Source: a virus. From it: DNA of 25,431 bases. Below the pieces are notes generated by a model. It was not told the origin of the DNA. It made no database searches and saw nothing but the letters and a program-made list of their open reading frames with translations. Below are positions 1-25,431 of this stretch, piece by piece (the stretch's first letter is position 1; each line of letters starts with the position of its first letter). The translations under genes were made by a program, and so were the position numbers. Location: positions 1-25,431 of the IMG/VR virus record IMGVR_UViG_3300030116_002323; one strand, written 5' to 3'.

Positions 1-154
1 CTATTTCTACTAACGACTGTAGACCTGCTTCAGATACAGCCCCAAATCCTTCCATATTTTCTAAAATACTTGTATAGGCATTTAATAATATTTCTATGTC
101 TCCCTGTAGGTTTAATGTATTTAAGATGTAATCCTCAAAATCTATAGCACTTAA
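1..154. repeat. Left copy of the 154-bp terminal overlap
   Basis: Positions 1-154 match 25278-25431 at 151 of 154 bases. The differences are at 22 (G here, A in the right copy), 41 (C, T) and 77 (G, A). All three are synonymous in the minus-strand MuF gene that spans the junction (CTA/TTA Leu, GGG/GGA Gly, GCC/GCT Ala). The simplest reading is a circular or circularly permuted genome whose assembly overlaps itself, with variants from the phage population, so the real genome is about 25,277 bp. A physical direct terminal repeat is possible, but the mismatches argue against it. Confidence 0.9.
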
Positions 155-283: not shown

Positions 284-1595
284 TTACTGGCTTTTCTAAA
301 GCTTGTAATAAACCATTCGACTGTGTAGATTGTGGATTATTTATGTTTTTATTATTTAATATTATTTCCTCAGCTCCTTCTCTTGTTAGTTCTGCATCTT
401 TAGACATTAAATAGTCTACTGGAGTAGCAAGGTTGTTGCTAAATAACCAGTCCCATTTATTTCTCTCATTTTCAGGATCAGGAAACTCAATCTCTGTAAA
501 GTTAATAAAGATGTTATCAGGCATATTGATACCAGTCTCTGCAAGAGCAATTTGCTTTTCAATTTTATATATATGCTTTTCAAGTTGTCTAAATTTCTCA
601 ACAGCATCCTCTCTGCTTTCCATTAACTCTAAATTATTTAATTTTATAGCTACACCTGACTGATTGCCATTAACTCCCCAATCAAAACTCATGTGATGAT
701 TAGTAGATAATAATGTTAATTGATCTTTAATAGCATCTATAGAGGGCTGTATGTTAGTCTGTGGGTTTACACTATACATGTTACCATCTTCAATAACAGA
801 TAATTTATTTAATCCTATTTGTATATTATTAGCATCTACTCTACCATTACAGGCTAAAATACCATCTGACATCCTTAACTTAAATGCTAACTGTGTTAAT
901 TGCTGATCTATCTGCTTGTTAGTTTGTGCTATGTCAAATCCTTCTCCAGTAGTCCAAAAATTATCTATTGAGTCATTATGTAAAAATACAAATGGTAAAA
1001 TACCATAAGGATTAACACCATCTTCATTACCTTCCATGTGCATTATCTTACCATTATAATTAAACATATAATGCTCAGTGTCAGACCAATATACATAAGT
1101 CATGTCTTTAACATCACCTCTAGATCCTGATGGATGCCCTAAACAATACACAATGCCTATAGGATCCATAAAGTTATCATCACTAAATACAGGCTCAAAC
1201 TCTAATACTGGCTCATAAGTAAACCCATTACCATTCCATGCTATTCTTACAGCTATAGTCCCTAATAAATTGTGTATTCGTTCTATTTTTTTTAGCTTGT
1301 AATCTTTTTGACCAATTAGATCATAATACTTATCTGTGTCTATTGTTCTATTAGGACTATTTTTATATACTAGACTTATTCTATCTATTAATCTTTTAGT
1401 AATTTTTGATGTATATATATCTATCTCATTATTAATAGAGCCTTTAAATTTATCTTCTATGTATTTAGCAGTGTTATCATAAGTATAGTAGTCTATTGCC
1501 ATAGTTCTCTCAGCGAAAAATCTATCTATAATATCACCTTTATATTTTTGGAGAGTCTCCTCCATCATTTGTCCTGCATTACTATATATAATCAT
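276..1595 (-). CDS. Portal protein (SPP1 gp6-like)
   Basis: 439 residues. Its ATG at 1595 overlaps the end of the large terminase gene (ATGA), and its own stop overlaps the MuF start by 8 bases. The portal forms the dodecameric ring at the capsid vertex through which DNA is packaged and to which terminase and connector bind. Position immediately after terminase, length near 440, an N-terminal helical region, a central beta-rich wing region around residues 120-220 (FEPVFSDDNF, PYGILPFVFLHND), then long helices around 290-360 with LTLLSTNHHMSFDWGVNG and SGVAIKLNNLELMESREDAV fit the SPP1-type portal family. The C-terminus (from about 405) is Asn/Gln-rich and probably flexible. Recognised from pattern and context. 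Confidence 0.88.
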   Translation of the reverse strand: MIIYSNAGQMMEETLQKYKGDIIDRFFAERTMAIDYYTYDNTAKYIEDKFKGSINNEIDIYTSKITKRLIDRISLVYKNSPNRTIDTDKYYDLIGQKDYKLKKIERIHNLLGTIAVRIAWNGNGFTYEPVLEFEPVFSDDNFMDPIGIVYCLGHPSGSRGDVKDMTYVYWSDTEHYMFNYNGKIMHMEGNEDGVNPYGILPFVFLHNDSIDNFWTTGEGFDIAQTNKQIDQQLTQLAFKLRMSDGILACNGRVDANNIQIGLNKLSVIEDGNMYSVNPQTNIQPSIDAIKDQLTLLSTNHHMSFDWGVNGNQSGVAIKLNNLELMESREDAVEKFRQLEKHIYKIEKQIALAETGINMPDNIFINFTEIEFPDPENERNKWDWLFSNNLATPVDYLMSKDAELTREGAEEIILNNKNINNPQSTQSNGLLQALEKPVNE

Positions 1596-2803
1596 AAATT
1601 AAAAGTCCTTGTTACTGGAGGTCTTACTGGGTGTCTATAATGTAGACCATAAGTAGCAGAGTCTAAAGCATGAGTCCTCCTTATATCTGTCTTATCTATA
1701 CCTCCATTTTTATCTCTACCACATAACTCAAAATCTTTAATTAACTCTACACACTTAGGATCTACAGTAAGTTTTATAGATCCAGTAGCATCTTTAAGCT
1801 TGTAATTCAGTGCACTTATTCTATCTCTATGTGTTGGTGCTTTTCTAGCTGATATTACATTAAATCCGTAAGCTCTTAATATATCAAAATCACTACCACT
1901 AACAGATGTAGTGGATCTAGCTGATCCTGATGGATCAGGATATATATCCTTAACATGATTCCATTTTTCTTTTATTTTTCTTGCCATTTCATCAGTATTA
2001 CTATTAGTTAATCTAATCTCATCATAATAATGCAGTGTCCCATCACTAAACTCACTGCATAACACACTGCTCATATAATCACAATTAAAGTCTATGCCTA
2101 TCCATTTATAATGACCTAACTCATTAGCTTTCTTAACATGGGTATCTCTATCAAAATTATAAGCTACTCTATTTCCTGCTGATTCAAATGTAGCCTCAAA
2201 CTCCTGCCTAAAAGTCCTTTTATCCATAGATCTTTTAGCTTTATTTATTTCTTCAATAGGCACAAATCCACCATCTACTGTTTTAAATTGCCATGATTTC
2301 CAATCCTTATCAGATCCCTGACCTTTTAAAAATATATCATAGAAATGGTTATGACCATCAGGAGTCCCTATAAATAATGCACTAGAGTTTAATGTATCTA
2401 CTAATGATGGATATATTATTTCCTCCCACACATTAGGCTTCATAAAAGCATACTCATCTAATACCACTCTAGACAGTGAAACACCTCTAAGAGAGTCCTC
2501 ATTATCTGCACCTTTTATAGCTATTTCTGCTCCATTATTAAATTTAATACTTAAATCACTTTCATTAATTTTTAAGTGAGGTCTCCCACCAAGTAAGTTC
2601 TTTAGTAGAGGAAATATCACCATCCTCCCCTGCCTGTATGTAGGCATAATAATCCACCTTCTCTCCTGACTCTGTAATGAACCATTCAATATATATAGGA
2701 GGCTTAGACTTGTCTTTCCAAATCTTCTCCCTGCCACAATACATTTCCATCTGCTCTGATGGTTCAGGATCTTCCTGATATTCTTGGTCGTAACTAGATT
2801 CAA
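1592..2803 (-). CDS. terL: Terminase large subunit (ATPase and nuclease)
   Basis: 403 residues. This is the packaging motor: an ATPase translocates DNA into the prohead and a nuclease cuts the concatemer. Visible motifs are Walker A AGRRFGKT (24-31), Walker B VVLDEY (113-118), a coupling-type motif GTPDG (146-150), and RNase H-fold nuclease acidic residues at D238 (GIDFN), D290 (DPSG) and D381 (HALDSATYG). Length is normal for a compact TerL. The start is a TTG at 2803 embedded in the TTGA that ends the small terminase gene; no ATG lies before the Walker A motif, so translational coupling is likely. All key residues appear present. Confidence 0.95.
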   Translation of the reverse strand: MNLVTTKNIRKILNHQSRWKCIVAGRRFGKTSLSLLYILNGSLQSQERRWIIMPTYRQGRMVIFPLLKNLLGGRPHLKINESDLSIKFNNGAEIAIKGADNEDSLRGVSLSRVVLDEYAFMKPNVWEEIIYPSLVDTLNSSALFIGTPDGHNHFYDIFLKGQGSDKDWKSWQFKTVDGGFVPIEEINKAKRSMDKRTFRQEFEATFESAGNRVAYNFDRDTHVKKANELGHYKWIGIDFNCDYMSSVLCSEFSDGTLHYYDEIRLTNSNTDEMARKIKEKWNHVKDIYPDPSGSARSTTSVSGSDFDILRAYGFNVISARKAPTHRDRISALNYKLKDATGSIKLTVDPKCVELIKDFELCGRDKNGGIDKTDIRRTHALDSATYGLHYRHPVRPPVTRTFNL

Positions 2804-3129
2804 TTATTTTCAATGCCTTCAATATCAAGGATTTTAATTGGTTCAATTTCTTGAGTTTGGACTCTTTCAATAGCTTTCCCTTCTGTTCTATCAGCTATGA
2901 ACTGGACTGCCCATGCTTTACCCTGTATAGCATATTTATAAACATTTTGCATAACTACATCTATTTTTCTATCACCACTGTCCTGCTGTTCTTCACCTAT
3001 ATGCTTTAATATATCAGCTATAGATATAGATCCTTTAGGTCTGCCTTTACCTGCTTTATTACCTGCTATAAATTGACCTTTAGAGTTACGGTCTGCACCG
3101 TTTTTACCGTTATTTGACGGTTTGTCCAT
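2800..3129 (-). CDS. Terminase small subunit-like protein (DUF5681-like)
   Basis: 109 residues, ATG at 3129 with a GAGG ribosome binding site just upstream. The N-terminus is rich in Asn, Lys and Gly and contains QFIAGNKAGKGRPKGS (about 19-34), the basic motif seen in DUF5681-type phage proteins next to terminase genes. A helical region follows (IADILKHIGEE; KAWAVQFIADRTEGKAIERV about 70-90). The small subunit binds the packaging site and loads the large subunit; gene order directly before terL supports this. The first 15 codons hold four of the roughly 36 CpG dinucleotides of the whole genome, an oddity described separately. Assignment is by motif and position. Confidence 0.75.
   Translation of the reverse strand: MDKPSNNGKNGADRNSKGQFIAGNKAGKGRPKGSISIADILKHIGEEQQDSGDRKIDVVMQNVYKYAIQGKAWAVQFIADRTEGKAIERVQTQEIEPIKILDIEGIENN
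3088..3121. other. Phased ACCGT/ACGGT cluster, candidate packaging (pac/cos) site
   Basis: Four five-base motifs occur on the plus strand: ACGGT 3088-3092, ACCGT 3097-3101, ACCGT 3106-3110, ACGGT 3117-3121. Their CpG centres are 10, 9 and 10 bp apart, close to one helical turn. Neighbouring motifs also form inverted pairs, so short hairpins are possible in RNA. They lie inside codons 3-14 of the small terminase gene, and the CpGs fall both inside codons (CCG, CGT) and across codon borders (AAC GGT), which suggests constraint on DNA rather than protein. Headful phages such as SPP1 keep pac in or near the small terminase gene. Function is inferred. Confidence 0.45.
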
Positions 3130-3272
3130 ATTACCTCATTTATTGTGGTTAGCTAACCATAAAAAGTCTATTTTTAGTATCTGCACCAATATTATTACTT
3201 TATCACAGTTTTAAGGCTTAGACTGTTCCTATATATATAAGGCTAGGTTTAGGGTGTTTTTTGCATATTATT
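3130..3272. promoter_or_regulatory. Non-coding gap with a 14-bp perfect palindrome before the terminase genes
   Basis: This 143-base gap carries no convincing gene. A perfect palindrome, TGGTTAGCTAACCA, sits at 3146-3159, 17 bases upstream of the small terminase ATG and just before its GAGG ribosome binding site. With no loop it looks more like an operator for a dimeric protein than a terminator. The rest is AT-rich, including a TATATATATA stretch near 3232-3240. A late promoter here is plausible because the head operon starts after it, but I could not define a clear -35/-10 pair. The neighbouring HTH-like gene (3273-3587) is a candidate binder. Confidence 0.4.
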
Positions 3273-24796: not shown

Positions 24797-25431
24797 ACCT
24801 CTACACCTCTAGCTGTTACAGGATTATAATTTTTTTTGCTACCTATAAAATTATCTGCTTTTTTATTTTCTAGCTTTACTGTTGGTGTAAGCATAGTCCA
24901 TCTATGTCTACAATTATAGCCACCTCCATCAGTAAAAGCACTTGGAAATCTTTTATCTATTTCTTTTTTTGTTAAAGATCCTGCACTGATCATCTCTAAA
25001 CACACATCCCTAGTTCTTTCATCTAATGCACCCTGATAATAATACTTAGTATCATCAGGCATATCCTCAGTCATAAGCTCAGTTACTGACCTAGAGTAGC
25101 TATTTAATGATGTATTAGCTAATGTCTTAGCTTGTTCTTTAGTTAATACACCCCCAAATCCGTTTAAAATGCTATCTGTAAGCTCACTTTCTGTTAGTCC
25201 TGCTATTATACCCCTAGACAGTTCTTTTTTCATTGTATTTGCAAAATTTTTACACTCACCTACATAAAAAGTTCTATCTATTTCTACTAACGACTGTAAA
25301 CCTGCTTCAGATACAGCTCCAAATCCTTCCATATTTTCTAAAATACTTGTATAAGCATTTAATAATATTTCTATGTCTCCCTGTAGGTTTAATGTATTTA
25401 AGATGTAATCCTCAAAATCTATAGCACTTAA
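24793..25431 (-). CDS. MuF-type head morphogenesis protein, C-terminal part (N-terminus at the left end)
   Basis: Continuation of the gene whose start is at 283 across the circular junction; the frame is open to the right edge and the last 154 bases duplicate the first. The signature at residues about 185-240 of the full 255-residue protein is characteristic: SVTELMTEDMPDDTKYYYQG, ALDERTRDVCLEMI, and GGGYNCRHRWTML near the end, the D-x-RT...C...CRH pattern of MuF domains. Some related proteins carry toxin domains at the C-terminus; none is present here. MuF proteins enter the head and aid assembly. The stop at 24793 overlaps the next gene by ATGA. Confidence 0.88.
   Translation of the reverse strand, partial: LSAIDFEDYILNTLNLQGDIEILLNAYTSILENMEGFGAVSEAGLQSLVEIDRTFYVGECKNFANTMKKELSRGIIAGLTESELTDSILNGFGGVLTKEQAKTLANTSLNSYSRSVTELMTEDMPDDTKYYYQGALDERTRDVCLEMISAGSLTKKEIDKRFPSAFTDGGGYNCRHRWTMLTPTVKLENKKADNFIGSKKNYNPVTARGVEV
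25278..25431. repeat. Right copy of the 154-bp terminal overlap
   Basis: Matches 1-154 at 151 of 154 bases, with transitions at the positions matching left-copy bases 22, 41 and 77. All lie in the MuF gene and are silent. See the left copy for interpretation. Confidence 0.9.

Follow-up and report, generated by a model that had tools for sequence, protein, structure and literature searches.

A tripartite element at the start of a DUF5681-like gene is a probable packaging-recognition site in uncultured phages

What reads a short run of DNA in which a virus that otherwise avoids CpG dinucleotides has placed four of them, at intervals of about 10 bp, at the start of a gene adjoining its large terminase gene? 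The window (the whole 25,431-nucleotide stretch analyzed, from IMG/VR record IMGVR_UViG_3300030116_002323) contains 36 CpGs (observed/expected 0.07), or 35 unique ones when the CpG that is duplicated in the end repeat (1–154 = 25278–25431) is counted once. Four of these lie at 3089, 3099, 3108, and 3118, at spacings of 10, 9, and 10, and their coordinates confirm what a sequence-only reading had reported, namely four CpGs in 31 bases, all in ACCGT or ACGGT motifs. That reading had also judged the cluster improbable by chance and not explained by amino acid needs, and both judgments held up. Uniform placement of 35 CpGs put four within 31 bp in 0.05% (5e-4) of draws. When the synonymous codons of the first 16 codons were redrawn from the window's own usage, none of 200,000 draws reached four CpGs, the maximum being three, which was attained in 1.5e-5 of draws. 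Indeed, elsewhere in the window proline is never encoded by CCG (0/214), arginine is never encoded by CGT (0/242), and asparagine before G is encoded by AAC in only 2/191 cases, so that amino acid needs fail to account for the CpGs. The observed cluster is genuine and stronger than first claimed.

Layout of the element in the window

The features of the region, all on the minus strand, are as follows.

1592..2803, minus strand: large terminase (TerL; phrog_2, 5e-43), with a 4-bp overlap with the preceding gene
2800..3129, minus strand: 109-aa DUF5681-like protein, putative small terminase, directly upstream of TerL
3117..3121, minus strand: half-site 1 (W; gene-strand ACCGT)
3106..3110, minus strand: half-site 2 (W'; gene-strand ACGGT), separated from half-site 1 by 6 bp
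3097..3101, minus strand: half-site 3 (W'; gene-strand ACGGT), which repeats half-site 2 directly at a distance of 9 bp
3088..3092, minus strand: half-site 4 (W; gene-strand ACCGT), inverted, from direct reading of the sequence
3040..3087 (approximate), minus strand: N-terminal arm codons, up to a GRPKG motif; the arm co-varies with the half-sites in relatives

Read on the gene strand, the element is ACCGT-N6-ACGGT-N4-ACGGT-N4-ACCGT, extending from nucleotide +9 to +42 of the DUF5681-like gene and lying within codons 3–14. An inverted pair is followed 9 bp on by a direct repeat and then by a fourth, inverted copy, which falls at the arginine codon that in L001, one of the nearest relatives, contains the third CGG half-site. 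The tripartite pattern of inverted and direct half-sites outscored all of 1,000 dinucleotide shuffles (p about 0.001). A perfect 12-bp palindrome, GGTTAGCTAACC, occupies 3147–3158 and precedes the gene start by about 20 bp.

Conservation of the layout and exchange of its letters

Scans of viral contigs yielded 95 distinct loci of the main family, and a tripartite element of the form W-N-W'-N-W', in which W' is the reverse complement of W and the half-sites are about 10 bp apart, was present at the same place in 86 of them; these counts cover three half-sites. The half-sites fall into six classes across lineages (CGG, CAGG, CAGC, CAAC, CAAG, and ATGG), those other than CGG being spelled CCTG/CAGG/CAGG, (T)GCTG/CAGC/CAGC(A), (C)GTTG/CAAC/CAAC(G), CCAT/ATGG/ATGG, and (AA)CTTG/CAAG(TT)/CAAG(TT). 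The class patterns were defined after inspection, and a first scan that accepted any 4-bp word had a background of 17% of windows. Less biased support was therefore drawn from dinucleotide shuffling, which gave p ≤ 0.02 for 22 of the 31 representatives; the combined Fisher value of 6e-29 comes from loci that are not independent. Nine loci were unclassified or degenerate (L036, L054, L067, L118, L177, L235, L257, L261, and L277). No such element was found in the GC-rich L118 and L119, nor in L192, L193, and L195, three further phage records whose DUF5681 gene is not directly beside TerL. A scan for AACTTG-N6-CAAGTT-N4-CAAGTT returned three matches, all in known contigs that carry the gene, and no satellite copy.

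The nearest relatives, L001 and L002 (75% identical), have CCG-N8-CGG-N7-CGG, its CpGs phased at exactly 10 bp, among totals of just 9 and 7 CpGs in 8.3 and 6.4 kb. Thus, loss of the motifs in close relatives, which would have spoken against a binding site, was not seen. CpG-rich relatives also bear the CGG form. Because the letters of the half-sites differ between lineages, and classes other than CGG lack CpG, we reject CpG as an essential feature. Judged from these comparisons, the essential feature is W-N-W'-N-W' with a spacing of about 10 bp, and CpG richness is incidental.

In several lineages (L029, L036/L037, L069/L110/L111, and L076/L077), the element either precedes the start codon or does not share the frame of the protein, in which stops interrupt it. 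The element therefore acts as nucleic acid, and conservation at the level of the protein is rejected. Together with the codon statistics, the out-of-frame elements indicate conservation as nucleic acid beyond the protein sequence, in keeping with the proposal of the sequence-only reading that a binding site would appear in relatives as conserved DNA with variable codons. It is barely credible that a chance cluster of CpGs and codons shared from a common ancestor could produce this picture. The codons of the CGG class are in part similar (PIENGxNRN), but such an origin is contradicted by the codon statistics, by the occurrence of the element outside the reading frame, and by the spelling of the same layout in other letters.

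The letters change together with the neighboring codons. Three loci, L005 (CGG), L068 (CAGC), and L078 (CAAC), are 97–100% identical on both flanks and 30–60% identical in an exchanged cassette of ~110 bp, which consists of the element and the codons of the N-terminal arm. Identical cores with different half-sites were likewise found for L004–L011 versus L068, L073 versus L075, and L014 versus L033, and L047 and L055 have 100% identical cores with ATGG and CAGG sites, respectively. A tree of the cores, poorly resolved from few columns, requires 22 changes of class. Meanwhile, the arm signature [FW]xxGN was present at all 34 CGG loci and at none of the 52 loci of other classes. The four supported independent pairs all agreed on arm and half-site, in an underpowered phylogenetic sign test (p 0.125). 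Since the element and the arm codons are physically adjacent, the association may in part be linkage. A remote DUF5681 family, that of MAnkyphage (a phage of Megaira, a Rickettsiales endosymbiont), has the same layout, with CCATT/AATGG/AATGG, which is of the ATGG type, and the arm FQKGQ in L194 and L230, and CGTT/AACG(G)/TCGG, which is of the CGG type, and the arm FKLGN in L231. Recurrence of the association in this second, unrelated family lessens, but does not remove, linkage as a confounder.

The reader of the element

The protein of the window scored 23.8 bits against DUF5681 (PF18932), below the Pfam cut-off of 27.5, and all 26 aligned relatives matched that family at E ≤ 0.01 (best 8.5e-15). 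DUF5681 is a family without known function, and the one paper found to mention both DUF5681 and terminase only lists it among the proteins of a Salmonella phage. Neither sequence nor fold searches significantly matched the window protein to a known small terminase; fold comparison gave nothing at E ≤ 0.001, from a model with a pLDDT of only 69. A helix-turn-helix of the lambda type likewise had no significant fold or sequence match in this low-confidence model. Neither tblastn against a phage collection, which would have revealed isolate relatives, nor a search of bacterial genomes for host or prophage relatives produced a match. The position of the gene beside TerL marks the protein as a putative small terminase. 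The gene lies directly upstream of TerL even where TerL is only 28–35% identical to that of the window. The family is paired with two very different groups of TerL (L007, L012, L013, L022, L046, L054, L063, and L067 versus L001, L010, L009, and L060), which show 28–35% versus 51–86% identity to the TerL of the window.

We consider it probable that the element is the recognition site of a DUF5681-type small terminase, that is, a site at which packaging is initiated. The small terminase would be encoded by the very gene that contains its recognition element, and three (here four) half-sites of 3–6 bp, about one helical turn apart, would be presented on one face of the DNA. An oligomer of DUF5681 could dock through its N-terminal arms, one per half-site, and recruit TerL for the first packaging cut. 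Exchange of the element and the adjacent arm codons between phages as a single cassette, with the rest of the protein unchanged, would alter packaging specificity and keep site and reader matched. The site is indeed in or next to the putative small terminase gene, upstream of TerL. The suggestion of the sequence-only reading that this is a packaging site thus fits the layout and the relatives and appears to be the best inference; its emphasis on CpG richness did not survive.

The main rival is an operator read by the same protein. More broadly, DUF5681 or another phage protein could use the element to control transcription of the terminase operon, with packaging starting elsewhere, which we regard as unlikely but plausible. 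A combination of inverted and direct half-sites close to the beginning of a gene is typical of operators, and the association with the arm is equally expected under autoregulation. However, the position of the element relative to the start codon varies, from ahead of it to ~40 bp into the gene, which is unusual for a promoter operator, and the joint swapping of site and reader next to TerL suits packaging specificity better. The two functions could also be present together. Very improbable, in our estimate, is recognition by some other protein, such as a replication or recombination protein or an upstream methyltransferase, for which the terminase gene would be merely a convenient location. 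A methyltransferase-like C-terminus (identified by eye from the peptide) does lie directly upstream in many relatives, but L005, L068, and L078 have nearly identical upstream gene ends and different half-sites, which rejects the methyltransferase as the determinant, and in the window no gene of this kind directly precedes the DUF5681-like gene.

Alternatively, the element might act as RNA, W pairing with one W' or the other to form alternative hairpins that control translation from the beginning of the mRNA, so that the pairing only is conserved. Complementarity of W and W' holds for all classes while the letters change freely, and the four sites of the window fold as two 5-bp hairpins (−10.9 kcal/mol). 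Yet the predicted energies of 21 other elements are only −0.7 to −5.4 kcal/mol, and so the folding energies do not point to a stable structure across lineages. Moreover, the third copy is identical to the second, which is needless for a single hairpin, the spacing is maintained near 10 bp, and the half-site class tracks the arm of the protein. An RNA function is, in sum, decidedly doubtful.

Packaging mode and known packaging sites

The ends of the window (1–154 and 25278–25431) overlap by 154 bp with three mismatches (98% identity), which makes the genome about 25,277 bp long and either permuted or concatemeric. Overlapping ends were also present in 9 of 17 long related contigs. Across the ten assemblies including the window, the overlaps fall at scattered places with respect to the gene, as permuted genomes would produce. 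The scattered ends fit packaging of the headful (pac) type, the most likely mode, better than cos, but intracellular concatemers would look alike. Fixed virion ends at the element, as in a cos site, find no support here, given the scatter of the contig ends.

A close parallel is with the R sequences of cosB in phages lambda, 21, and N15, where the small terminase binds three short repeats, of which one is inverted (PMC4669245). Among lambda-like phages the letters of the repeats and the matching recognition residues differ, resulting in distinct packaging specificities (PMC4669245). The element shares with cosB the three repeats, the single inversion, and a specificity that differs between relatives. 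Unlike cosB, it has half-sites of 3–6 bp packed in about 24 bp, and no fixed genome ends were seen at it, and whereas the cosB reader uses the recognition helix of a helix-turn-helix, here it is an arm of DUF5681, in which no such similarity was found, that co-varies. By analogy, the element may work like the R sites of lambda. In SPP1 and SF6, which package by headful, the repeats of pac span the start of the small terminase gene, and the DNA-binding domain of SF6 shows little sequence preference for them (PMC4737164); the location is similar to that of our element, but co-variation here points to sequence-specific reading. P22 pac, too, is within the small terminase gene, but it is an asymmetric 22-bp sequence, and attempts to measure binding of pac oligonucleotides in vitro were unsuccessful (PMC9611059).

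According to a review of the field, the small terminases of pac packagers make weak, sequence-independent contacts, and current models leave specific recognition unexplained (PMC9611059). With a fixed geometry and half-sites spelled in at least six ways, each paired with an arm of its own on a nearly identical core, recognition becomes a directly testable question. If the packaging interpretation is correct, DUF5681 would gain a function, and packaging sites would become predictable from sequence in uncultured phages. More speculatively, and with rather less than even confidence, we suggest that DUF5681 is a class of small terminase whose short N-terminal arms read the helically phased tripartite site by a simple residue-to-half-site code, and that specificity is switched by way of the ~110-bp cassette, perhaps as an escape from satellites or from cross-packaging by competitors.

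CpG depletion is extreme in the window, L001, L002, and L036 (observed/expected 0.04–0.07), and relatives reach values of up to 1.45. The excess of GpC (1.41) is greater than that of TpG or CpA, and simple deamination is therefore no explanation for the depletion. Palindromic tetramers are absent as well: the window contains no GTAC (119 expected) and no GGCC (23 expected), L001 and L002 also lack GATC, L036 also lacks AGCT, L077 lacks GATC, CTAG, and GGCC, and L007 lacks CATG. This absence of tetramers, which differs between phages, looks like avoidance of host restriction sites.
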